Source: Candidatus Omnitrophota bacterium (GTDB lineage: Bacteria; CG03). Taken from it: a stretch of 39,208 bases of DNA. Each line of letters opens with the position of its first letter. Position 1 is the stretch's first letter. The translations under genes were made by a program, and so were the position numbers. Positions 25,777 to 38,928 of this stretch are shown here, in pieces. The notes beneath the pieces are model-generated. The model did not search any database and was not told the origin of the DNA. It was given only the letters and a program-made list of their open reading frames with translations. The DNA is taken from positions 1-39,208 of the forward strand of contig VMTH01000166.1 in NCBI GenBank assembly GCA_013791745.1, written 5' to 3'.

Positions 25777-26070
25777 TCAGCGCTGAGCCCCTTCCTGGGG
25801 GGCGGGCGCAGCCGCCGGCGGCACAGCCGGAAATTTCACACCCCGTTGTTTTACCGCCGCGGATATGGATATGGATGTGATAACAAAAAGAATGCCGAGC
25901 ACGACCACGACCTTTTTTAAAAACTCATCCCCTGCCGGGCCCATCAGAAGGGAATCCGAGGAGCCGCCAAGAAATGACGATCCGGTCGCGCCGCGGCTGA
26001 CCTGGATCAGAATTATAAATATCAGCGCCGTTGCTATTACCACATGACAAACAACCAGAAATGTATACAT
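25777..26070 (-). CDS. secG: Preprotein translocase subunit SecG
   Basis: A 97-residue membrane protein with two transmembrane helices (residues 3-23 and 52-74). SecG assists the SecYEG channel in protein export. The conserved linker between the helices, QVSRGATGSSFLGGSSDSLLMGPAG, with its Gly/Ser-rich character, is diagnostic, and the C-terminal tail is Pro/Ala rich. It starts four bases after the pgk stop, so it is part of the gap-pgk operon. In many bacteria secG follows tpiA; here tpiA is absent. The tRNA-Leu gene follows. Confidence 0.92.
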   Translation of the reverse strand: MYTFLVVCHVVIATALIFIILIQVSRGATGSSFLGGSSDSLLMGPAGDEFLKKVVVVLGILFVITSISISAAVKQRGVKFPAVPPAAAPAPQEGAQR

Positions 26071-26074
26071 AAAA

Positions 26075-27247
26075 TTACTCCTGCTTTAAGGCTTCTATTC
26101 CCGGCAGCACCCTGCCTTCCACGAATTCCAGCGATGCGCCCCCTCCGGTTGAAATATGGCTGAAATCACCAGCGACCCCGGTTTTGTTTATGGCCGATAC
26201 GCTGTCGCCGCCGCCGGCGACCGAAACGGCTCCTGCTTTTGTGGATTCCGCTATTATCTCGGCGATTTTTTTTGTGCCTTCCGCGAACTCGTTTACTTCA
26301 AAAACCCCCATGGGCCCGTTCCAGAATATGGTTTTGGCTTTCTTTAAGATCCGGGAATATTTCTGCACCGTCTCAGGGCCTATGTCAACACCGTAAAAAC
26401 CGTCGGGGATTGCAGATGATACGGAATTTTCAAGGGCTTCTTTAAACGATTTGCTTATCACATGGTCCGATGGCAGAAGAAGTTTTTCTCCGGCCGCCTC
26501 GGCGATTTCCTTCGCCTTTTCAAGAAACTCGTCCTCGACAAGCGACAGGCCGGTATTTTCCCCGCGGGCTTTAAGAAAGGTGTATGACATGGCTCCGCCG
26601 ACAAGCAGATAGTCCACTTTTGACAGCAGGCTTTTCATGACCGATATTTTGGTGGATACTTTCGCCCCCCCGAGCACGGCCGCGAAGGGCCTGTTCGGGT
26701 TTTTAAGAAGCTCAGAAAGATATTTCACCTCTTTCTGTATCAGAAAGCCCGCCGCCGACGGCAAAAGAGCGGGAATACCTGCTGTTGAGGCATGCGCCCG
26801 GTGAGAAACAGCGAAAGCGTCCTGTATGAACACATCTCCGTAAGATGCGAGTTTTTTCGCGAAATTTGCGTCGTTGTTCTTTTCTTCGGAATAAAAACGC
26901 AGGTTTTCAAGCAGGGCTATGGAGCCCTGTGGAAGATTTTCGAGACCCTCTTTTGTATTATCGCCAGCGCAATCTTCAAAAAAATACACCTTTTGAGCGA
27001 GAAGTTTTTCAAGGCGCGGCAGAACGACTTTTAGCGAAAATTCCGGATCGGGGGCGCCCTTGGGCCTGCCGAGATGGCTCATAAGAATGATTGAGCGCGG
27101 CCGCTGTTCAAGGATGCTGTTTATGGTGGGCACATGAGCGCTCAGTCTTGTGTCGTCGCTGACTTCGCCGTTTTTTACAGGCACATTGAAATCAACCCGC
27201 ACGAGGACTTTCTTGTCCCGGAGATCCATATCTTTCAGTGTTTTCAT
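26075..27247 (-). CDS. pgk: Phosphoglycerate kinase
   Basis: At 390 residues it has the normal length. It catalyses 1,3-bisphosphoglycerate + ADP to 3-phosphoglycerate + ATP. Motifs: KVLVRVDFNVPVKNGEVSDD (substrate Asp-Asn), MSHLGRPKG, VFIQDAFAVSHRAHAST, AVLGGAKVSTKI, the WNGPMGVFE nucleotide loop and AGGGDSVSAINK near the C-terminus. The usual GGGD(T/S) motif is intact. The gene begins three bases after gap and ends four bases before secG, a compact operon. The pair gap-pgk would serve glycolysis or gluconeogenesis; a matching tpiA is not in the window. Confidence 0.97.
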   Translation of the reverse strand: MKTLKDMDLRDKKVLVRVDFNVPVKNGEVSDDTRLSAHVPTINSILEQRPRSIILMSHLGRPKGAPDPEFSLKVVLPRLEKLLAQKVYFFEDCAGDNTKEGLENLPQGSIALLENLRFYSEEKNNDANFAKKLASYGDVFIQDAFAVSHRAHASTAGIPALLPSAAGFLIQKEVKYLSELLKNPNRPFAAVLGGAKVSTKISVMKSLLSKVDYLLVGGAMSYTFLKARGENTGLSLVEDEFLEKAKEIAEAAGEKLLLPSDHVISKSFKEALENSVSSAIPDGFYGVDIGPETVQKYSRILKKAKTIFWNGPMGVFEVNEFAEGTKKIAEIIAESTKAGAVSVAGGGDSVSAINKTGVAGDFSHISTGGGASLEFVEGRVLPGIEALKQE

Positions 27248-27250
27248 GAA

Positions 27251-28246
27251 CTATTTTCCCTGCATATACTCTATAAGGTCGATAACCCTTGTGGCGTATC
27301 CCGTCTCATTGTCATACCATGCCAGGAGTTTCACCATGTCGCCGAAAACTTTAGTAAATCCGGCGTCGACGGTGGATGATTTGGGATTGCCGTTAAAATC
27401 TATCGAAACGAGAGGCTCTGTACAGACGGCCATGTATTTTCCGAGAGGGCCGTTCGCGGCCTTCACCAGCGCCGCGTTGACTTCTTCGGCTGTGGTTTCT
27501 TTTCCGACCTGCACAACGACATCTACCACGGACACGTTCGGGGTGGGAACGCGTATCGCGAAACCGTCCATTTTGCCTTTCAGTTCAGGTATCACAAGCC
27601 CTATGGCTTTGGCGGCTCCCGTAGTTGTCGGTATCATTGAGGCCGACGCTGTTCTGGCGCGGCGAAGATCTTTGTGCGGCGCGTCCAGAACATTCTGATC
27701 GTTGGTGAAAGAATGAATCGTTGTCATAAGGCCTTTTTTAATGCCAAAGGAGTCCATCATCACTTTCATCGGCGGCGCCAGGCAGTTTGTCGTGCAGGAG
27801 GCGTTGGAGATGATGAAATGTTTGGAAGCGTCATATTTATCTTCATTGACGCCCATCACTATTGTTATATCCTCCTCCTTTGCCGGCGCTGATATTATCA
27901 CTCTTTTTGCCCCCGCTTTAAGATGCTTAGAGGCCTTGTCTTTACTTGTGAAAAGTCCTGTTGACTCAACGACTATTTCCACGCCCAGATCTTTCCACGG
28001 AAGAGCTTCAGGATCCCTTTCGGCAAAAACTTTGATCTCTTTACCGTCGATGACCAGGCTGTTCGCCTTTGCTTCCACGGAGCCGGGAAAAGTGCCGAAG
28101 GTGGAATCGTATTTAAAAAGATGCGCGAGAGTTTTAGTGTCCGCAAGGTCGTTTACGCCCATAAACTCAATGTTCTTAGAGTTTAATCCGGCTTTAAGCA
28201 CCAGGCGGCCTATGCGGCCGAATCCGTTAATACCAACTTTTGTCAT
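27251..28246 (-). CDS. gap: Glyceraldehyde-3-phosphate dehydrogenase
   Basis: The protein has 331 residues. It oxidises glyceraldehyde 3-phosphate to 1,3-bisphosphoglycerate with NAD and phosphate. The NAD fold ([17 protein letters not shown]), the catalytic [12 protein letters not shown] (Cys151) and [20 protein letters not shown] (His and sulfate/phosphate-binding loop) are present. The residue after the nucleotide fold (VNDLAD) has Asp, typical of NAD-preferring enzymes. I chose ATG 28246, preceded by GGAGG at 28252-28256; the longer start at 28270 is unsupported. It leads the gap-pgk-secG-tRNA cluster. Confidence 0.97.
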
Positions 28247-28301
28247 TTTACATCCTCCATTTTGGAACATTAATTCAAAAATCCTTCAATCCTTCGTTTC
28301 G

Positions 28302-29069
28302 CTATTTTGAGATGGGAATATCCCGCTCAATCAAGTTTTGATTATACAAGTTTTTATAAAATTGTAAAAGACCGTTAAACACGAGCGCCTGATCTTTTTT
28401 GTAGCGGAACGAAAGGTCCCCGGGCCTGAGAAACCGTGATCCGGAGCCGGTTAAGAACACCGCCGCCCCCGGCTCACGTTTGAGAAAATCAGAGACTGTT
28501 TTTTCTATACCGCCGAGTGTCGCCGCCCACACGCCTTTTCTGATACATTCCCCGGTGTTTGTGCCGGGCCCTTTCCGCGGGCGCGAGAATGCCGTATCAG
28601 GAAGAAGGGCGCATCCTTCATTCAGCGCTTTAAGGGAAAGCTCTATTCCCGGGAATATCACGCCACCCCGGTAATTGCTCTTTTTATCCACAAGTTCGCA
28701 GGTGACGGCGCTGCCTATGTCGACGATTATAAAAGGAGGCCGTCTTTGGATGAGAGCGCCGATTATCGAGGCTATCCTATCGGCGCCGATGTCTTTAAGA
28801 GGAGCGTATTTTAGTTTGACGAGCGCGATATCTCGGTAGGTTAAGAAATAAATTTTTATACCGCTGGAGCGGCAAATTTTTTTTAGCAGCGCCGTTACTT
28901 TCGGCACCACCGAACAGCACACGCAGGTGTGGGTGTTTTTCAGGATATCCCTTAGTTTTTTTTCGCTCAGGAGCGAAGTCCTGAACTGTTTTCCCGGTAC
29001 GGTTTTTCCTTTTTTTACGACGGCGCTTTTTATCAGGGTGTTGCCGGCGTCAATCAAGAGCTTTATCAT
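28302..29069 (-). CDS. coaX: Type III pantothenate kinase
   Basis: CoaX phosphorylates pantothenate in the first step of coenzyme A synthesis, and belongs to the ASKHA fold. The protein has 255 residues. Motifs: LLIDAGNTLIKSAVV (phosphate-1), the conserved CSVVPKV, APLKDIGADRIASIIGA (GADR(V/I) element), FIIVDIGSAVTCELVD (phosphate-2 like DFGTATT) and YRGGVIFPGIELSLKAL. Its start overlaps the end of the M23 peptidase gene by 20 bases. Expression would depend on the upstream operon. Type III enzymes need a monovalent cation and are not inhibited by CoA. Confidence 0.93.
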   Translation of the reverse strand: MIKLLIDAGNTLIKSAVVKKGKTVPGKQFRTSLLSEKKLRDILKNTHTCVCCSVVPKVTALLKKICRSSGIKIYFLTYRDIALVKLKYAPLKDIGADRIASIIGALIQRRPPFIIVDIGSAVTCELVDKKSNYRGGVIFPGIELSLKALNEGCALLPDTAFSRPRKGPGTNTGECIRKGVWAATLGGIEKTVSDFLKREPGAAVFLTGSGSRFLRPGDLSFRYKKDQALVFNGLLQFYKNLYNQNLIERDIPISK

Positions 29070-30306
29070 GTTTGAATTTGCCCTGCGTTATCAGTTCGGC
29101 TATGGAGCGGTAATACTTTTTCTTGAGCGGTAAAAAATCCTCCATCTCTTTCTTTGTGAGGCTTTTTGCCGGCGGAAGTTTTAAGGTCAGGAAATTCACG
29201 AAACTCCCGTGTTTTTTTACCCTGAAATCAAGATGAGGGCCTGTAGAAAGACCTGTCGAGCCGACATAACCGATATCCTGACCTTTTTTAACAAAAGCCC
29301 CTCTTTTTATGCTGCTGGAGTATCTTGAAAGATGTCCGTACCACGACTCGTATGTGGAATTGTGTTTTATTTTAACCATCTTGCCGTAGCCGCCGTTTCT
29401 GCCGACATAAACAACTTTGCCATCGCCGATCGATGACACGGGAGTGCCGGTCGGCGCGGCGTAGTCTATGCCGTGGTGAGACCTGTAGTATTTTAAAACG
29501 GGATGAAAGCGCCGGTTGGAGAAGTAAGAGGAAATCCTCCTGAAATGCAGGGGCGCGCTGAGGAACTGCGTGCTCAAAGATTCTCCCGCCGGACTGTAGT
29601 AGTCATAAAGTGTTCCGCGCGGAAAAGCGAAAGCCATGAATTCCTTTATCTTCCCCCTCCCGCGCTGACCGCCGGACATGATATATTTGCCGACGAGTAT
29701 TGTGCCGTTGTCCACCTCCTGTCCGCTGTCGGTGAAAGACTGCTCATAAACGATAAAAAATCTGTCACCAGGCCGTTGATCCGTGAGAAACGCTATTCTG
29801 GATTCGAAAATATCCGCGAAATTCATTATGAGCGAGGGATTCACGCCGGCCGAGATCATGGAATAATAAAGATTGTTTTGAACGGTGCCGGAATAGCCGA
29901 AATATTTTTTATGGATTCTCATTCGCACTTCACCGGACCTGTAACCCGCAGTCGTGAGTTTTACGAGATATTTTTTTGCCACTTCCGGCTGGTATGAAAA
30001 TTCCAGTATTTTATTTTCCGTGGACAGGGCGATCTCATAGTAATGTCCGGCCTGTATTTTTTTGACATTGTAAATTTTTGAGAATTCGCCGATCACGTCG
30101 TAATAGTTGTTCGCCGGCACGCCGCGTCTGGCGAAAATTGTTATGAGATTTTCGCCGGGCGCGAGGGTGTCGCCGTATATGATCGTCTTCGGTTGCGGGG
30201 GAATCTCATCGCGGCTTCTCCTGGCACGGATAAAAAAAACCGCTGTCAGCAGAAAAACAGCGGCGGCGGCAAAAACAAGCGGTTTTTTGTTTTCCGGCAG
30301 CTCCAT
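29050..30306 (-). CDS. M23-family peptidoglycan endopeptidase
   Basis: A 418-residue protein anchored by an N-terminal helix (PLVFAAAAVFLLTAVFFIRA, residues 9-28), with an OapA/LysM-like middle part (GDTLAPGENLITIFARRGVP) and a C-terminal LytM/M23 zinc peptidase domain. Zinc ligands are in YRSHHGIDYAAPTGTPV (HxxxD) and GPHLDFRV (HxH-type, first His of SWYGHLSRYS also conserved). Such enzymes cut cross-links in the periplasmic cell wall during growth or activate amidases. It overlaps coaX and follows apgM by 21 bases. The HxH here reads HLD, where many members have HLH; this may weaken activity. Confidence 0.85.
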   Translation of the reverse strand: MELPENKKPLVFAAAAVFLLTAVFFIRARRSRDEIPPQPKTIIYGDTLAPGENLITIFARRGVPANNYYDVIGEFSKIYNVKKIQAGHYYEIALSTENKILEFSYQPEVAKKYLVKLTTAGYRSGEVRMRIHKKYFGYSGTVQNNLYYSMISAGVNPSLIMNFADIFESRIAFLTDQRPGDRFFIVYEQSFTDSGQEVDNGTILVGKYIMSGGQRGRGKIKEFMAFAFPRGTLYDYYSPAGESLSTQFLSAPLHFRRISSYFSNRRFHPVLKYYRSHHGIDYAAPTGTPVSSIGDGKVVYVGRNGGYGKMVKIKHNSTYESWYGHLSRYSSSIKRGAFVKKGQDIGYVGSTGLSTGPHLDFRVKKHGSFVNFLTLKLPPAKSLTKKEMEDFLPLKKKYYRSIAELITQGKFKHDKALD

Positions 30307-30327
30307 TATTTTGACCCAGCCCGTTTG

Positions 30328-31530
30328 TCAGGCCCCGAATTTTTTTAGCTTCAGAGCGTTTGCCATAAGGATAGGCATTATGTCAGCCGACCATATCCTT
30401 CCTATGGATCCGTTTTCAAAAGCTCTTTCCGAAAAAACGGATATATCGTCCGCTATTTCATATTTTGATTTTATGGCTATGGGGCAGGGATGCCAGGAAT
30501 GCGCGCTCATCTTCGCCGGCGTTGAATGGTCCGCCGTTATGCAGACCACATCAAAATTTTGTGATATTATTTCGGGAAGCAGTTTATCAAAAGCCTCAAT
30601 GGCTTTCACTTTGCCTTCAAAATCCCCGTCCTCACCGCGGGAGTCGGGGTATTTGTAATGGTAATAGATGAAATCGAAGACGGAGCCCTTTTTCTTTAAC
30701 GCTTCCAGCTGGCTCTCCGGCGTTGCGCCGCAATCGACAATATCCATTCCCACAAGCGAGGCGAGCCCTTTATACATGGGATAGGTGGCGAAGGCCCCGC
30801 ATTTCAGTTTGTAGAGTTCGCTCATCTTCGGGATGTCCGGCAGGCACGCGAAACCCCGCATGAGCGCCGTGTTGGCTACCGCTTCGTCTTCAAGAGCCTC
30901 ATTCAGCCGTGTTATGAAAGCGTTGACAATTCGGGCAGATCTTGACGAGGCCTCGGAGGTGTTCCTGCATTTGAGCGGCGGAAGGCCTTCCTTCTGGGGA
31001 TCGGCGTCGGCAAGATCGCCGCAAAGATTTTCTCCGGTGAACATAACCACGAACCTGTGTTCTTTTCCGGGAAAAATTTTCACTTTCACATCGTCTATTT
31101 CCGTTATTTTTTCGGAAAGTTTTTTGACAAGCCGTTCGTTCTCCTCCGTGGGAATCCGCCCGGCCCTCCGGTCAACGATGAGCCCGTCTTTGAGAGTGGC
31201 GAAATTCGCCCTCGCGGCCATATCAAATTCCGTCATCTCCAAACCTATACCCAGCGCCTCGAGAACGCCTCTTCCTATCTGGTATGTCATGGGATTATAT
31301 CCGAAAAGCGCGAGATGCCCGGGCCCGGAGCCGGGCGTTATACCCAGCGCCACAGGCACATTTCTTCCGCAGACAGACTCCTTCGCGAAAGCGTCAAGGT
31401 TCGGACACACGGCCGCTTCAAGTTCCGTCTTGCCGTTGACAGGAATGCCGCCGAGGCCGTCGACGACGATCATGCATATTCTTGACGGCGTCTTCTCAGA
31501 CAGGCCCATCATCACATTTTCAGGAAACAT
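30328..31530 (-). CDS. apgM: 2,3-bisphosphoglycerate-independent phosphoglycerate mutase (ApgM type)
   Basis: A 400-residue enzyme of the archaeal-type iPGM group in the alkaline phosphatase superfamily. It interconverts 3- and 2-phosphoglycerate using two metals and a phosphoserine. ICMIVVDGLGG holds the first metal Asp, TPGSGPGHLALFGYNP the catalytic Ser and the ApgM hallmark, ARANFATLKDG and RRAGRIPTEE the substrate region, and ITADHSTP the distal metal ligands. ATG 31530 has AAGGAGG upstream. The gene sits between pdp and the M23 peptidase; with gap and pgk nearby on the same strand it completes part of lower glycolysis. Confidence 0.95.
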   Translation of the reverse strand: MFPENVMMGLSEKTPSRICMIVVDGLGGIPVNGKTELEAAVCPNLDAFAKESVCGRNVPVALGITPGSGPGHLALFGYNPMTYQIGRGVLEALGIGLEMTEFDMAARANFATLKDGLIVDRRAGRIPTEENERLVKKLSEKITEIDDVKVKIFPGKEHRFVVMFTGENLCGDLADADPQKEGLPPLKCRNTSEASSRSARIVNAFITRLNEALEDEAVANTALMRGFACLPDIPKMSELYKLKCGAFATYPMYKGLASLVGMDIVDCGATPESQLEALKKKGSVFDFIYYHYKYPDSRGEDGDFEGKVKAIEAFDKLLPEIISQNFDVVCITADHSTPAKMSAHSWHPCPIAIKSKYEIADDISVFSERAFENGSIGRIWSADIMPILMANALKLKKFGA

Positions 31531-31554: not shown

Positions 31555-32883
31555 TTACATCTTGATGATGCCGTTTTTATCGGCTTTGCCGTAGAAAAAT
31601 TTAGGAGATGCGACTTTTTCAGCTCCTATGGTGTAAGCGGCGATAAAACGCTTTTTCGCGGATTCAAACTTAACCTTATCGCTGTAATAAAATATTGCAA
31701 GCGCTTCGCCTTTTTTGACTTCATCACCAACCTTCTTTTTCAGATATATACCTACTCCGGGATCCACTATATCATCCTGCTTGGCCCGTCCCGCGCCAAG
31801 AGCATTGGCGGCAAGTCCGACTTCAAGAGCGTTGATCTTCTGCACATATCCGTCACGGTCGCTGGCAACCTCAACTTCCTCTTTTGCCCTGGGAAGCATA
31901 TCCATATTATCAATAGAGGCCGGATCTCCTCCCTGAGCCTCTACCATTTCTTTGAACTTCTTAAGGCCGCTGCCGTCGGCAATGGCTTTTTTCATTCTGG
32001 TTTTTCCGTCTTCTATGTCGGCGGCGATTCCGGATATGATAAGCATATTCGCTCCAAGTTCAACGCAGAGGTCTTCAAGGTCTTTGGGCCCTTGGCCCTT
32101 AAGGGTGGCTATCGCTTCCTTAACTTCTATGGCGTTACCTATTGCGAAGCCCAGGGGTTCTTCCATTGAAGTAACAAGCGCCACCATTCTTCTACCGGCA
32201 AGTTCCCCGACATCAACCATGGCTTTCGCGAGTTTTGCGGCATCCTCATATGTTTCCATAAAAGCGCCTGACCCGGTTTTCACATCAAGAACGATACCGT
32301 TGGCTCCCGCCGCGAGTTTCTTGCTCATAATACTTCCGACTATCAGAGGGATGGAATCCACTGTCGCCGTCCCATCGCGTAACGCGTATATTTTCTTATC
32401 CGCGGGGGCGAGCTTTGCTGTTTGTCCTATGAGTGCGATATGTATTTTATTTACGTTCTCAACAAACTTCTCCATTGGCAGACTGCAGGAAAAACCCGGA
32501 ATAGATTCAAGTTTATCGATAGTGCCGCCGGTGTGGCCCAGGCCCCGTCCCGTCATTTTAGCAACGATACCGCCGCAGGCCGCGACAAGAGGATTCAACA
32601 CCAGTGAGGTAGTGTCACCTACGCCGCCGGTAGAATGCTTATCAACCTTAAAACCTTTTATACTGCTTAAATCCACACGGTCTCCGGAATCAACCATGCA
32701 CTCCGTCAGGACCGTTGTTTCTTCCGCTGTCATATCCGAAAAATATATTGCCATCAGAAAAGCCGATATCTGATAATCCGGTATGTCGCCTTTGACAAAC
32801 CCTGATATCATAAACTGAATCTCTTCTTTTGAAAGAACCGCACCGTCCCTTTTCTTCTTGATCACTTCATAAACACTGAACAT
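31555..32883 (-). CDS. pdp: Pyrimidine-nucleoside phosphorylase
   Basis: At 442 residues the protein is a class II nucleoside phosphorylase. It splits uridine, thymidine or deoxyuridine with phosphate to the base and (deoxy)ribose 1-phosphate. KVDKHSTGGVGDTTSLVLNP (phosphate loop with Lys and Ser), MTGRGLGHTGGTIDKLESI, PADKKIYALRDGTATVDSIPL and LDVKTGSGAFM are nearly identical to Bacillus Pdp, with DeoA less similar. The start has AAGGAGG. It lies 21 bases after the RecJ-DnaQ gene in the nucleoside operon. Its product pentose 1-phosphate is the substrate of DeoB encoded upstream. Confidence 0.94.
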   Translation of the reverse strand: MFSVYEVIKKKRDGAVLSKEEIQFMISGFVKGDIPDYQISAFLMAIYFSDMTAEETTVLTECMVDSGDRVDLSSIKGFKVDKHSTGGVGDTTSLVLNPLVAACGGIVAKMTGRGLGHTGGTIDKLESIPGFSCSLPMEKFVENVNKIHIALIGQTAKLAPADKKIYALRDGTATVDSIPLIVGSIMSKKLAAGANGIVLDVKTGSGAFMETYEDAAKLAKAMVDVGELAGRRMVALVTSMEEPLGFAIGNAIEVKEAIATLKGQGPKDLEDLCVELGANMLIISGIAADIEDGKTRMKKAIADGSGLKKFKEMVEAQGGDPASIDNMDMLPRAKEEVEVASDRDGYVQKINALEVGLAANALGAGRAKQDDIVDPGVGIYLKKKVGDEVKKGEALAIFYYSDKVKFESAKKRFIAAYTIGAEKVASPKFFYGKADKNGIIKM

Positions 32884-32904: not shown

Positions 32905-35022
32905 CTATTTCTTTTTCCAGCTTTTTAAGAAAAAAATAATCCTTTTCTTCCGCGCGAGCGCGGTGAAAATAACATCCATAACACCGCAGCCCGGATCCTC
33001 ACCAGCGATTATATTAAGAAGTTTTGCGTTTTTTTTCAACCTCAAAAGGAATTTATCCCCTTTTTGCGAGACCGAAACGCAGTCCATCTCCTCAGCGGCG
33101 AAAAGCGGAAGCGGATTCCCGTTCCCGAAAGGCTCAAGGGTTTCAAGGAAACTTTTTATGTTTTTGTCGAGCCAGTCATCCCACATAATATCAGCTCGCG
33201 GAATTTTTTGCTCAGGCATGTCTTCGAAATAAGTCTCGCAGTCGTCTATGAATTGCCTAAGATCATCTTTTTTTATCCGGATCCCGCATGCTCCCGGATG
33301 TCCGCCGTATTCCGCGCCCTTGCCGCATTTTTTGAATAGCTCCAGCATATCGCGGCCCGAGCCTCTCGCGGAAGCCGTCCAGTCGAAGGATGAAGCGGTA
33401 AAAACAACCGATGGTTTTCCGAATATCTGCGAGATCCTGCTCGCCGCGGGCCCCCGCAGGCCGGGAGGAAGTTTTTCCGCCTTGACCATTATGACGGGTT
33501 TTTTATTTAATCCGTTTTCGCGGATTTGCGTCAGCACTTCCTCAAAATGCAGTCTCATATCGCGCTGTCTTTTGTCATTTAGTTCTTTGACCCGATTGAA
33601 TGAGGCGGCAATGTTTTTTTTGGAATCGGCTTGCAGGATTTCCAGGGCAAGGCGCGGTTCGCCCATTCTTTTAGGTGCGTTAAGAAAAGGTATGAGTTTT
33701 CGTGACAGCTCCTCCCTGGGATTTTCCCGGGATATGGCGAGTTTTTTTATAAGTGTTCTCAGAGAATATCGCCTCACGTTCAAAATACCCGCAAGGTGTT
33801 TTTTGACCAGCGCGCGGGAAGTTCCTTTTAGGGCGATGTTGTCGGAAACAGTACCCAGCGCCGCCAGCGGCAGGTTCTGCTCAACAAACACCTTAAAGGC
33901 CGGGGTTCTGAAATGAGACAGGATCATGTAGAGTTTGCGGGCGGTCTCCGCGTCCGGCAGAGCCCTGTGCGCCTCGGCGTTTATGCCGAAATAGTCTTTG
34001 AGATGTTCAAGCTTGTGACTCTGTGACGGCAGGCAGCTCCTCGACATGGGAAGGGTATCAATCACATCATTGACCAGCGCGCAGCCGGTGTATTTGCGAA
34101 ATTCAGAATCTATGAAAGATGTGTCAAAGGGCGCGTTGTGAAATATCAGAGTGTCATTGCCTATCCATTCCCTGAAGCGGCGCAGCGTCTCCACGCGGCA
34201 GGGGGCTCCTTCAAGTTCCAGATTGCTGATACCGGTGAGAACGCTTATTTCGGGGCTTATACGGCTTGATGGTTTCAGCAGCGACGAGAAACGGTCTATG
34301 ACCCTGAATCCGGAGAATCTTACAGCGCCTATTTCTATGATCTCGTTTTGAGAAGGCGAAAGGCCGCTTGTTTCTATGTCGCAGGCTATTTTGATCTTGT
34401 CAAAATCTTTGTCAAGGCTCAGTTTATAGGCGGCGGCGAGGCAGAAAGCGGCCGCGCAACCGGCTATTTCGGTGTCCGGATGGCTGATGCAGGAATCTAT
34501 GACGGCGTCGGCTTCGGCGGCTTCCCCCGAAGGATAGTGATGATCCGTTATTATGAACCTGATGCCCCGTTCTTTAAAAGCTTTCGCGGCCTTGTGTTCC
34601 GAGATTCCGACATCGGCGCTGACGACAACAGCGGGCTTTGATTTCAGGACGTTTTCAATATCCGCCTCACCGATACCGTGCGCCGGACCGCCGCAGACAA
34701 AAAGAGATTTCTCCGTCCCGCTTAAAGCGTCGTCAAGGATCAGAAGTGAGCAGAGCCCGTCCGCGTCCGAATCCCCTATCAGGGCTATCCGTCCGCCCGC
34801 CTTGACGGCCTCTTTCAGTATCCCGACGGCTTTGCTCATGTCGGGGAAAATTCCCATGAGTTCAGGGATATTCACTTCAGGGTTAATCCAATCTCTGATT
34901 GCGCTTTCGGTTTTCAGTCCCCGCGCTAGAAGAAACTCAAGGATATGCCTGTCAGCTTTAACCTTTGACGAAAGATAATTCAGCAATTTTTCATCATCCG
35001 GCCGTTTCTCGTTAAAATCCAC
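32905..35022 (-). CDS. RecJ-type nuclease with nested DnaQ-family 3'-5' exonuclease domain
   Basis: A 705-residue chimera. The RecJ DHH domain opens with GDSDADG (83-89; DYDVDG in RecJ), VSADVGIS (Asp137) and ITDHHYPSG (Asp160-His161-His162). After AGCAAAFCLAAAYKL comes a complete DnaQ/epsilon-type exonuclease, residues about 210-378: CDIETSG (Asp215, Glu217), FHNAPFD (Asn296, Asp300) and EAHRALPD (His352, Asp357). Then RecJ resumes exactly with LAALGTVSD (Asp394, motif IV), and the DHHA1 domain (GGHPGACG, 573-580) and the OB-like PFGNGNP follow. Both polarities (5'-3' and 3'-5') of exonuclease could thus be in one chain. Start GTG 35022 without a clear ribosome site; 12 bases after punA. Confidence 0.88.
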   Translation of the reverse strand: MDFNEKRPDDEKLLNYLSSKVKADRHILEFLLARGLKTESAIRDWINPEVNIPELMGIFPDMSKAVGILKEAVKAGGRIALIGDSDADGLCSLLILDDALSGTEKSLFVCGGPAHGIGEADIENVLKSKPAVVVSADVGISEHKAAKAFKERGIRFIITDHHYPSGEAAEADAVIDSCISHPDTEIAGCAAAFCLAAAYKLSLDKDFDKIKIACDIETSGLSPSQNEIIEIGAVRFSGFRVIDRFSSLLKPSSRISPEISVLTGISNLELEGAPCRVETLRRFREWIGNDTLIFHNAPFDTSFIDSEFRKYTGCALVNDVIDTLPMSRSCLPSQSHKLEHLKDYFGINAEAHRALPDAETARKLYMILSHFRTPAFKVFVEQNLPLAALGTVSDNIALKGTSRALVKKHLAGILNVRRYSLRTLIKKLAISRENPREELSRKLIPFLNAPKRMGEPRLALEILQADSKKNIAASFNRVKELNDKRQRDMRLHFEEVLTQIRENGLNKKPVIMVKAEKLPPGLRGPAASRISQIFGKPSVVFTASSFDWTASARGSGRDMLELFKKCGKGAEYGGHPGACGIRIKKDDLRQFIDDCETYFEDMPEQKIPRADIMWDDWLDKNIKSFLETLEPFGNGNPLPLFAAEEMDCVSVSQKGDKFLLRLKKNAKLLNIIAGEDPGCGVMDVIFTALARKKRIIFFLKSWKKK

Positions 35023-35034
35023 GAATTTTTTTAT

Positions 35035-35829
35035 TCAGAATTTTTTTGAGGAAAGAATACTCTTTATAAGCCGTATGAAATCGCATGAAATCATTTTTCC
35101 CGATTCAACGACTTCCTTGTGGGAAAGGGGCTGTCCCGTCACACCGCAGGCGTAGTTGGTCATGCAGGAGATGCCTATCACCGTCATGCCGAGCTTTTTG
35201 GCCGTGATCACCTCCGGCACTGTGGACATTCCGACCGCATCGCCGCCGAGCGTCCGCACCATTCTTATCTCGGCCTTTGTCTCATAAGAGGGCCCGGAAA
35301 AAGCCAGATAAACGCCTTCATTGATTTGGATTTTCAGTTTTTTCGCTTCGGCTTTCACTATTTTTCTGTACTCCGCGTCATAAGCGTCGCTCAGATCTAT
35401 GAAATGCGCGCCGCCGATAAGGGGATTATCCCCGAGCATGTTTATGTGGTCGCTTATCAGCATAAGAGACGGCACCTTGAAACTTCTATTGACCGCCCCG
35501 CCCGCGTTCGTCACAATGAGTTTTTTCACGCCCATTTTGGCCAGCACTTCTATCATCAGCACAAGCTTCGCCATCGGGTGCCCTTCGTAATAGTGAATCC
35601 TTCCGGCCATGATGATGACTTTCCGCGAAGCTATTGTACCGGAGATGAGCTTTCCGGAATGGCCCGGCACTTTGCTTTTGGCGAAACCCGGGATTTTCTC
35701 GTAGGAAATTTCTTTTCTGTTTTTTGCTTCGTCCGCAAGAGCCCCCAGTCCGCTGCCCAGTATCAGGGCTGTTTCAGCGCCGTCGATCTTCTTCTTTATA
35801 ACGTTGTAAGCTTTGTCTGTCGCGTTCAT
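35035..35829 (-). CDS. punA: Purine-nucleoside phosphorylase
   Basis: A 264-residue PNP of the trimeric (NP-I) type. It cleaves inosine and guanosine, and their deoxy forms, with phosphate to base and pentose 1-phosphate. TALILGSGLGALADE (phosphate loop), VPGHSGKLISG, AGRIHYYEGHPM, LIVTNAGGAVNRSFKVPSLM, ISDHINMLGDNPLIG and GPSYETKAEIRM with GMSTVPEVI are all present. ATG 35829 is chosen because AAGGAGATATT precedes it and it overlaps the deoB stop (ATGA); a longer in-frame start at 36021 lies inside deoB. The GDAVGMSTVPE loop replaces xanthosine-type variants. Confidence 0.95.
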   Translation of the reverse strand: MNATDKAYNVIKKKIDGAETALILGSGLGALADEAKNRKEISYEKIPGFAKSKVPGHSGKLISGTIASRKVIIMAGRIHYYEGHPMAKLVLMIEVLAKMGVKKLIVTNAGGAVNRSFKVPSLMLISDHINMLGDNPLIGGAHFIDLSDAYDAEYRKIVKAEAKKLKIQINEGVYLAFSGPSYETKAEIRMVRTLGGDAVGMSTVPEVITAKKLGMTVIGISCMTNYACGVTGQPLSHKEVVESGKMISCDFIRLIKSILSSKKF

Positions 35830-37016
35830 AATATCTCCTTTAAAAATGATGTTCCCTTTTTGAGGCCTTCCACGCCGAGATATTCCGCCGCCGTGGCCCC
35901 TATATCGGCGAAAGTCTCCCGCGTTCCCAGATCCACACCGGCTTTTACCATGCTCCCTGACACTATCAGCGGCACAAATTCTCTCGTGTGATCTGTGTGC
36001 GCGATGTATGTCGGATCGCATCCGTGGTCCGCGGTGAGGATGAGTATGTCGTTTTTCAGCATGGATTTTCTTATCTCCGGCAGAGCCGCGTCAAATTCCT
36101 TTAAGGCGTCGTAATAACCCTGAGTATTTCTTCTGTGACCGAACAGTGAATCAAAATCCACCAGATTCACAAACAAAAGCTCTTTTTTTTCAGGAACCCG
36201 CTTTATATCTTCGATCGTCTGTTTTATTCCCGCGCCGTTAAGGCCGGTGTGCTGTTCTTCGGTCAGACCTCTGTGGGCGAAAATATCTCCTATTTTTCCG
36301 ACCCCCACGACATTTACTCCGGACGCTTTAGCGAGATCCATAAGCGTGATTGACACCGGTTCTATGGCGTAATCCTTGCGGTTCGTTGTTCGCGCGAAAC
36401 TGCCGGCTTCGCCGTTGAAGGGCCTGGCTATGACGCGCGCTATGGCGTGAGGCCCCGTCAGTATTTCTCTGGCTTTTTCACAGACACTGTAAAGTCTGTC
36501 CAGGCCGAAATATTTTTCGTGGGCCGCTATCTGAAAAACGCTGTCGGCGGAAGTGTAAACAATTGGGAATCCCGTCTTTACGTGCTCTTCTCCTAGTTCT
36601 TCCAGTATAACCGTGCCGGAGGAGGCTTTGTTGCCGAGGATGCCGTCAACCCCCGCGGCTTTTTTGAAGGTGTTCAGCAGGTCTTCGGGAAAACCGTCAG
36701 GGTAAGTTGGGAAGGGGCGTCTGGCGGGACTTCCCATTATTTCCCAGTGCCCCGCAGTCGTGTCCTTGCTGGCGGATACTTCCGCCATTCTTCCGTAGGC
36801 CCCCTGAGCCTCAGGCGCTTCTTTGCCGGGGTGAAGATTTTTTATTTTACCCAGCCCCAGTTTTTCCAGATTGGGCAGATCCAGGCCTTTGAATTTCTCA
36901 ACAATATGCCCCAGTGTGTCGGACCCTTTATCGCCGTATTCAGCGGCGTCCGGCATCTCGCCCACGCCCACGCTGTCAAGAACGATAACGATAACTCTCT
37001 TTGCGCCTTCAGTCAT
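35826..37016 (-). CDS. deoB: Phosphopentomutase
   Basis: The protein has 396 residues. DeoB converts (deoxy)ribose 1-phosphate to (deoxy)ribose 5-phosphate, linking nucleoside phosphorolysis to central metabolism. The alkaline phosphatase-like metal site is seen in IVLDSVGVGEMPDAAEYGD and TADHGCDPT with HTDHTREFVP. KDTTAGHWEIMG contains the catalytic Thr, and GSDTLGHI is a family motif. The start has AGGAGG four to six bases upstream. It leads the deoB-punA-recJ/dnaQ-pdp operon and its stop overlaps punA. A deoC aldolase for the deoxy branch is not in the window. Confidence 0.96.
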   Translation of the reverse strand: MTEGAKRVIVIVLDSVGVGEMPDAAEYGDKGSDTLGHIVEKFKGLDLPNLEKLGLGKIKNLHPGKEAPEAQGAYGRMAEVSASKDTTAGHWEIMGSPARRPFPTYPDGFPEDLLNTFKKAAGVDGILGNKASSGTVILEELGEEHVKTGFPIVYTSADSVFQIAAHEKYFGLDRLYSVCEKAREILTGPHAIARVIARPFNGEAGSFARTTNRKDYAIEPVSITLMDLAKASGVNVVGVGKIGDIFAHRGLTEEQHTGLNGAGIKQTIEDIKRVPEKKELLFVNLVDFDSLFGHRRNTQGYYDALKEFDAALPEIRKSMLKNDILILTADHGCDPTYIAHTDHTREFVPLIVSGSMVKAGVDLGTRETFADIGATAAEYLGVEGLKKGTSFLKEIL

Positions 37017-37138: not shown

Positions 37139-37193
37139 AAACTTTTTGAAACCATTAATGTTCGCTTTTACGCGAAGTTCAGACAAAAAGTTT
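37139..37193. terminator. Nested hairpin overlapping the ade stop codon
   Basis: AAACTTTTTG (37139-37148) pairs with CAAAAAGTTT (37184-37193) over 10 bases, enclosing a second stem TTCGC/GCGAA (37161-37165 and 37172-37176). The right arm lies in the last codons of ade. After the left arm, on the minus strand, comes GTTTTC, so it could end ade transcription. The whole 37017-37178 gap also holds GGCGGACTT twice (about 37089 and 37103), and no gene. Confidence 0.5.
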
Positions 37194-38888
37194 CACAAAT
37201 TTATTCTGCGTCACATCCACCAGCCCTTTATCGGTTATCTTCAGATCCGGTATGACCGGCAGAGCCAGAAAAGAAAGCACCATAAAAGGGTCATCAAGTT
37301 TACAGCCCATGGCGGCAGATGCCTTATGCAGATGTTTCAATTGTTTGTAAACAAAGGAAAGATCCCTGTCGCTCATAAGGCCGGCTATCGGCAGGGGAAG
37401 AATTTCCTGCCTGTCGGATTGGAAGCAGCAGAGTCCCCCACCGGATTTTATAATGGCCAGCACCGCCTGATAAATGCTCTCGTCGTCGCAGCCGACGCAG
37501 ATTATATTGTGGGAATCATGCCCCACCGAGGATGCCAGCGCCCCTTTTTTAAGGCCGAAGCCTTTTACAAAGCCCTGAGAGATATTACCTGTTCTCTTGT
37601 GGCGTTCAACAACGACAATTTTAAGGATGTCATTTTTTGTGTCAGACACGGCAAAGCCATTTTCCGTCTTTACGGGCATCACCCGTTTTTTTGTTATAAG
37701 TTCATCGGGGAAGAGCTCAATCACATTGACTTTTTTGGATGCCGCCGGGAGTTTGAAATGCGCGGGCATTATCCATTTTACGTTTATGCTGCTGCGAAGA
37801 GGCACGGGCTTTGGTTTTCTGCTTTTGAGGGCTTTTCCGTTACGGGCGACTTCTTCCCCGCGCTTGTAAACATTCAGAACCCTGAATTTGGACAGATTGT
37901 CCACAATAATAAAATCGGCGAAATAGCCGGGCGCGACAGCCCCCGCGTTGCGCAGGCTGAAATGTCTGGCGGGGTTTATTGTGGCCATTCTTATGGCGGA
38001 GACGGGATCAACCCCTAAAGATATGGCTTTCCTTATCGTGTAGTCCAGGTGGCCTTTTTCCACAAGATCTATGGGATTGCGGTCATCGCTGACAAGGCAG
38101 AAGCGGCTCTGGTTTGTTTCGCTGACAATGCCCGCGAGTGTTTTGAGGTTTTTGGCCACGGAACCTTCCCGTATCATCACGGTCATCCCCGCCGAAAGTT
38201 TTTCAAGGGCCTCTTCTTTCCCGAAGGATTCATGATCGCTGTGTACGCCGCTTGTTATGTATGCGTAAAGATCTTTACCCATGAGACCGGGCGCGTGCCC
38301 TTCTATGGCTTTGCCGAAAGCTATTTTCAGTTTGTCAAAAATCTCCCTGTCATTCTCAAGGACGCCGGGCACATTCATCACTTCCCCGAGGCCGACGACC
38401 CATTTTTGTGAGAAATAAGGCATGAGATCGACCGCCGAAAGCCTCGCCCCGGAAGTTTCCATATCGGTGGCCGGCACTGTCGAGGGCAGGGTAAAATATA
38501 TGTCCACAGGCTGGTATTTTGCCGATTGCAGCATATAGGTAATACCTTCCAGCCCCAGAACATTCGCTATTTCATGAGGATCGCATATAACGGTTGTCGT
38601 GCCGTAAGGCAGCACCGCTTTTACGAATTCGCCCATTTCCAGCATTGAGCTTTCCGTGTGTATGTGCCCCTCCACAAGGCCGGGCACGATATAGTGGTTT
38701 TTTATGTCAACAGTTTTTTTTGCTTTATAATTTCCGAATCCCACAACAACGCCTTTGTGCACAGCGACCCCTGTTTTCTCTACCTTGCCGGAAAACACAT
38801 TAACGAGCCGCGCGTTCTTGAAAAAAACATCCACGGGGATTTTGCCCCTTGCCGCTTTCACGAGTTCGTATTTGTTGATAAAATTCAT
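37179..38888 (-). CDS. ade: Adenine deaminase
   Basis: An approximately 569-residue metal-dependent amidohydrolase that converts adenine to hypoxanthine and ammonia. The metal site is HIVxG-like GLVEGHIHTESSMLE (HxH), with VICDPHEIANVLGLEG, a signature of bacterial adenine deaminases. SDDRNPIDLVEKGHLDY supplies the conserved Asp-Asp, and the C-terminal domain has NIICVGCDDESIYQA and GGGLCCFQ. I chose ATG 38888 (a TTG at 38912 is in frame). No ribosome site is visible, but a good promoter lies directly upstream, so the message may be nearly leaderless. The enzyme complements PunA in purine salvage. The gene is in its own unit, 162 bases upstream of deoB. Confidence 0.94.
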   Translation of the reverse strand: MNFINKYELVKAARGKIPVDVFFKNARLVNVFSGKVEKTGVAVHKGVVVGFGNYKAKKTVDIKNHYIVPGLVEGHIHTESSMLEMGEFVKAVLPYGTTTVICDPHEIANVLGLEGITYMLQSAKYQPVDIYFTLPSTVPATDMETSGARLSAVDLMPYFSQKWVVGLGEVMNVPGVLENDREIFDKLKIAFGKAIEGHAPGLMGKDLYAYITSGVHSDHESFGKEEALEKLSAGMTVMIREGSVAKNLKTLAGIVSETNQSRFCLVSDDRNPIDLVEKGHLDYTIRKAISLGVDPVSAIRMATINPARHFSLRNAGAVAPGYFADFIIVDNLSKFRVLNVYKRGEEVARNGKALKSRKPKPVPLRSSINVKWIMPAHFKLPAASKKVNVIELFPDELITKKRVMPVKTENGFAVSDTKNDILKIVVVERHKRTGNISQGFVKGFGLKKGALASSVGHDSHNIICVGCDDESIYQAVLAIIKSGGGLCCFQSDRQEILPLPIAGLMSDRDLSFVYKQLKHLHKASAAMGCKLDDPFMVLSFLALPVIPDLKITDKGLVDVTQNKFVKLFV

Positions 38889-38899
38889 AATGTAGAGGT

Positions 38900-38928
38900 A
38901 TTTTAACAACAAAACCGTTAAAAATCAA
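38900..38928 (-). promoter_or_regulatory. Promoter of ade
   Basis: On the minus strand TTGATT (38923-38928), 17 bases, then TAAAAT (38900-38905). The start point would fall near 38893, only about five bases before ATG 38888, giving an almost leaderless message. Confidence 0.65.

Follow-up and report, generated by a model that had tools for sequence, protein, structure and literature searches.

A RecJ-like protein with a nested DnaQ-type exonuclease, encoded beside nucleoside salvage genes in a Candidatus Omnitrophota bacterium

Introduction

RecJ classically degrades single-stranded DNA in the 5'-3' direction, and DnaQ-type domains act in the 3'-5' direction. The closest described systems to the protein presented here are the bacterial RecJ proteins of Thermus (1ir6, 2zxo) and Deinococcus (5f55), which share its fold, its domain order and all of its metal ligands; the nested form differs from them in an insert of 157-182 residues between motifs III and IV and in the loss of the motif I aromatic residue and R109. 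In the Deinococcus enzyme (drRecJ), after which the metal ligands are named here, R109 forms part of the 5'-phosphate pocket, the Y80A and R109A exchanges each lower kcat/Km about 10-15 fold, and Y114 clashes with ribose (PMC4846377). The loss of the 5'-phosphate pocket was also the proposed explanation for the altered polarity in Cdc45 (PMC4846377), a RecJ-derived scaffold that has lost its nuclease site but, unlike the nested protein, has no DEDDh domain and serves in the replisome.

DEDDh exonucleases joined to other enzymes have been described as well. In PolC, a loop in the PHP domain holds a DnaQ-like exonuclease (PMC5636811), which is thus likewise nested in another catalytic domain, although the host in our case is RecJ and not a polymerase. 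PolC exonuclease domains were among the best outside matches of the insert, which points to a likeness of sequence rather than to a demonstrated descent. DinG with an N-terminal DEDDh exonuclease (PMC12345164) is similarly a fusion to another DNA enzyme, but it is joined end to end to a helicase, whereas the protein studied here is nested. In the freely accessible literature searched, no description of a RecJ and DnaQ/DEDDh/RNase T architecture was found, and its novelty is regarded as provisional.

Results

The window, i.e., the whole stretch of 39,208 nucleotides that was analysed (contig VMTH01000166.1), comes from a genome that is 97% complete (G000). The nested gene and the salvage genes that form a tight run with it are as follows:

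31555..32883, minus strand: pdp, pyrimidine-nucleoside phosphorylase, 21 nt downstream of recJ-dnaQ
32905..35022, minus strand: recJ-dnaQ gene, 705 aa, GTG start (ORF call, Pfam, orthologue alignment)
34417..35022, minus strand: RecJ part 1 (aa 1-202), the N-terminal region together with the DHH domain, which carries motifs I-III (GDSDADG 83-89, ADVG 136-139, DHH 160-162)
33895..34416, minus strand: inserted DEDDh (DnaQ/RNase_T) exonuclease, about aa 203-376 (D215, E217, D300, H352, D357)
33490..33894, minus strand: RecJ part 2 (aa 377-511), motif IV (ALGTVSD, D394), motif V (NAPKRMG) and linker helix
33223..33489, minus strand: DHHA1 domain (aa 512-600), SAR 551-553 and GGH 573-575
32908..33153, minus strand: C-terminal OB-like region (Pfam RecJ_OB, slightly below cut-off; low model confidence)
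35035..35832, minus strand: punA, purine-nucleoside phosphorylase, 12 nt upstream of recJ-dnaQ
35826..37016, minus strand: deoB, phosphopentomutase, in the gene run with recJ-dnaQ
37179..38912, minus strand: ade, adenine deaminase, in the same gene run

Pfam placed a DHH domain at aa 78-197 (8e-11), RNase_T (PF00929) at aa 213-365 (6e-28; 98.8 bits against a cut-off of 24), DHHA1 at aa 512-600 (7e-6) and, slightly below its cut-off, RecJ_OB at aa 624-667 (3e-5). The set of RecJ metal ligands is full (D84/D86/D88, D137, H161 and D394), and the five DEDDh residues are identical across six orthologues from the window's family (f1). The protein missed the equivalog cut-off of the NCBIfam model TIGR00644 (396.9 bits) with a score of 255.5 bits, or 258.7 bits without the insert; a recurring RecJ variant can therefore escape profile-based RecJ annotation.

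An alignment of 14 nested copies with 16 canonical RecJs revealed that, between motifs III and IV, the insert occupies the position of a loop that is 1-14 residues long in the canonical proteins, and the solved RecJ structures align to both flanks with about 10-16 residues between them. In the AlphaFold model (six sequences, pLDDT 73, pTM 0.73), the DHH strands (79-176) are followed by a helix (188-202), the exonuclease (210-371) and a second helix (374-393) that runs into motif IV; the last 100 residues were poorly modelled. Foldseek ranked RecJ first (1ir6, TM 0.73 by target; 5f55, E 5.6e-21) and matched the insert to DnaQ domains (8h18, TM 0.82). According to these predictions, the RecJ core stays folded around the inserted exonuclease. 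An earlier note, which was made from the sequence of the window, had described a precise junction, two intact catalytic sets and a RecJ core that could fold around the insert, and all three claims held.

Orthologues were found at the same locus, between punA and pdp, in five related MAGs, which means that six separate MAGs of the family, including G000, have the gene, at 34-97% identity and in open frames with no stops. Within the window's group, pairwise dN/dS against the two orthologues of intermediate distance, which are the informative ones, was about 0.07-0.2 for each domain; the closest pair had too few changes and the farthest pairs were saturated. These ratios, which are well below 1, indicate that the nested gene is under purifying selection in this group, where the insert is among the best-conserved domains. 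A profile built from the six orthologues was searched against 386 genomes, and it returned full-length nested matches in at least nine genomes from five families outside the phylum; this count is a lower bound because no more than two candidates from any one genome entered the scoring. The DHH, insert, DHHA1 and OB regions were all confirmed in the sequences of these copies. The nested architecture thus occurs in six families in total, f1 together with f191, f74, f35, f121 and f23. Among the matches listed for phages, plasmids and viral contigs there was no nested form, and those listed for 300 Bacillota genomes were separate RecJ and PolC/DinG-type proteins, with no nested form among them. 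A RecJ-like protein of another genome (L028 in G014; 6% contamination) is without the DxDADG and DHH motifs and was set aside.

The RecJ metal ligands are complete in five f1 copies and in the nine copies from outside the phylum, and in all of these 14 copies the RecJ pocket is altered: the motif I aromatic residue (DYD) is replaced, giving DRD, DKD or DSD, and R109 (Deinococcus numbering) is lost. Both Y80 and R109 were kept in nearly all of the 16 canonical RecJs, although these do not come from the phyla of the nested copies, and lineage effects may contribute to the contrast. The motif V arginine and, in DHHA1, the S/T-x-R and GGH motifs are retained in the nested copies. The RecJ chemistry of these proteins is thus probably modified, and as RecJ enzymes they may be weakly active or act differently. 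Since both Y80 and R109 are lost, the polarity and the substrate of the RecJ half may differ from the classical ones, and its polarity should not be assumed.

Either active site was found to have been lost separately. In the sixth f1 copy (G006, L010:1087-2700, same locus), the DHH and DHHA1 motifs, and with them the RecJ metal ligands, are gone and the DEDDh site is intact, which resembles the state of Cdc45; the AlphaFold model of this copy is of low confidence (pLDDT 57). The reverse was observed in the two f121 copies, in which the DEDDh residues are gone and the RecJ residues are intact:

L142:2742-4964 and L143:6178-8166: nested copies of f121 (G432, G569) with the DEDDh site lost and the RecJ residues kept

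Even so, 157-167 insert residues remain in these two. Overall, the DEDDh residues are complete in 12 of the 14 aligned inserts and in G006. Because RecJ was lost in one lineage and DnaQ in the other, either activity can be retained alone, and these copies represent natural single-site mutants for dissecting the role of each site.

The gene neighbourhood is conserved across families. In five of the six (f1, f191, f74, f35 and f121), pdp adjoins the nested gene, with punA, MTAP or deoB nearby; in f1 it is flanked by punA and pdp, in the other four both genes lie alongside, and in f35 MTAP is additionally near. In the f23 pair (L136, L139), the nested gene has pyrB on one side and a response-regulator-like gene on the other, with no salvage neighbours. 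At six canonical recJ loci, no pdp, punA, MTAP or deoB was found within the flanks examined. That the salvage genes are usually beside the nested gene suggests a dedicated nucleic-acid-recycling nuclease. This adjacency supports a link with nucleotide salvage, but alone it is no proof of function, and across families it could partly have come from the transfer of the whole operon. Downstream of the run in the window, apgM, an M23-type peptidase gene, coaX, gap and pgk follow on the same strand (25777-31530), so that salvage and glycolysis genes lie close together.

Discussion

The f1 inserts form a single clade (98/88) that is separate from the stand-alone DnaQs of the phylum, and a derivation of the insert from these proteins is therefore unsupported. 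For a single origin of all nested forms, the p-AU values were 0.40 for the RecJ part and 0.118 for the insert, which neither establishes nor rejects it. Tentatively, the nested RecJ-DnaQ could be a distinct multi-family subfamily that was fused once and spread or was inherited with the pdp-punA salvage operon, and in which the remodelled RecJ pocket and the inserted 3'-5' exonuclease would jointly turn DNA into salvageable nucleotides. That the gene is an assembly chimera or a pseudogene has practically no probability: no point in its support was found, and the dN/dS values, the locus in six f1 MAGs and the architecture in nine further genomes contradict it. Because the nested architecture recurs in separate genomes, a chimera was ruled out. 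Of the other matters raised by the earlier note, the order DHH, RNase_T/DnaQ and DHHA1 proved not to be unique to G000, a second intact recJ did not emerge in this 97%-complete genome, and the proposed link with nucleoside salvage was strengthened by the synteny that five families show, of which four lie outside the phylum; its idea of proofreading, as discussed below, is disfavoured.

With moderate confidence, we favour a two-site exonuclease that keeps both of its active sites and degrades single-stranded DNA or short oligonucleotides, most likely to nucleoside monophosphates for the adjacent salvage enzymes. We infer the activity of each site, the substrate, the direction in which the RecJ half works and the co-expression with the salvage genes: the DnaQ site between motifs III and IV would attack 3' ends, the DHH site, classically 5'-3', would attack 5' ends, and the products could feed nucleoside salvage through pdp, punA, deoB and ade, presumably after a 5'-nucleotidase step ahead of the phosphorylases. 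Two nuclease families are joined here in one nested chain, and RecJ would be tied to nucleoside recycling and not to repair alone. The f121 pair, however, shares this operon although its exonuclease is dead, and there a second active site is thus not required; in G006 it is RecJ that is dead.

The main rival, which we consider rather unlikely, is a repair nuclease whose single chain unites RecJ with an ExoI/ExoX-like activity and which could approach a nick from either side, during excision in mismatch repair or in RecFOR end resection. RecJ and DnaQ-type exonucleases are redundant in known repair pathways, which would suit such a role, as would the presence of recR in G000 and the gene content of this genome, in which no canonical RecJ and no second RNase_T domain were found. 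Its three other DHH proteins are shorter and without the RecJ arrangement, so the nested gene is the sole RecJ-like gene found there. However, salvage enzymes and not repair genes adjoin the nested gene in five families, ExoVII (xseA) is available as an alternative, and either active site can be lost. A nuclease for RNA or oligoribonucleotides (nanoRNase-like) instead of DNA is less probable again. Oligoribonucleases occur in both the DHH/DHHA1 and the DEDDh families (PMC9757072, PMC5593865), and the position of Y114 is Ile in f1; nevertheless, the tyrosine is retained outside f1, and G000 already encodes an NrnA-like DHH protein.

The f121 inserts, which persist in length after losing their catalytic residues, would agree with a mainly structural or docking module on an ordinary RecJ, but the complete DEDDh sets in the other 12 aligned inserts and in G006 and the strong conservation of the insert in the window's group make this a poor candidate. 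These same dead inserts also speak against a replicative proofreader on a RecJ scaffold. This reading, which is very improbable, draws on the nested RNase_T domain being the only one found in G000, G006 and G007 and on its survival in G006 despite the decay of RecJ in that copy. All 16 of the phylum's DnaE proteins with a complete N-terminus kept HHDHEHCDH, the nine exonuclease residues of PHP that are a signature of its active form (PMC12926913); an inactive PHP that would call for an epsilon subunit was thus not observed, and replicative proofreading is unlikely because DnaE retains an intact exonuclease site.

Other DHH/DHHA1 proteins also occur beside salvage genes in the phylum. A different protein of this kind, of about 430-460 aa (L030, L031, L005), has pdp or MTAP as its neighbour elsewhere in the phylum, with pdp in two other genomes, and in G000 it is MTAP that adjoins it.
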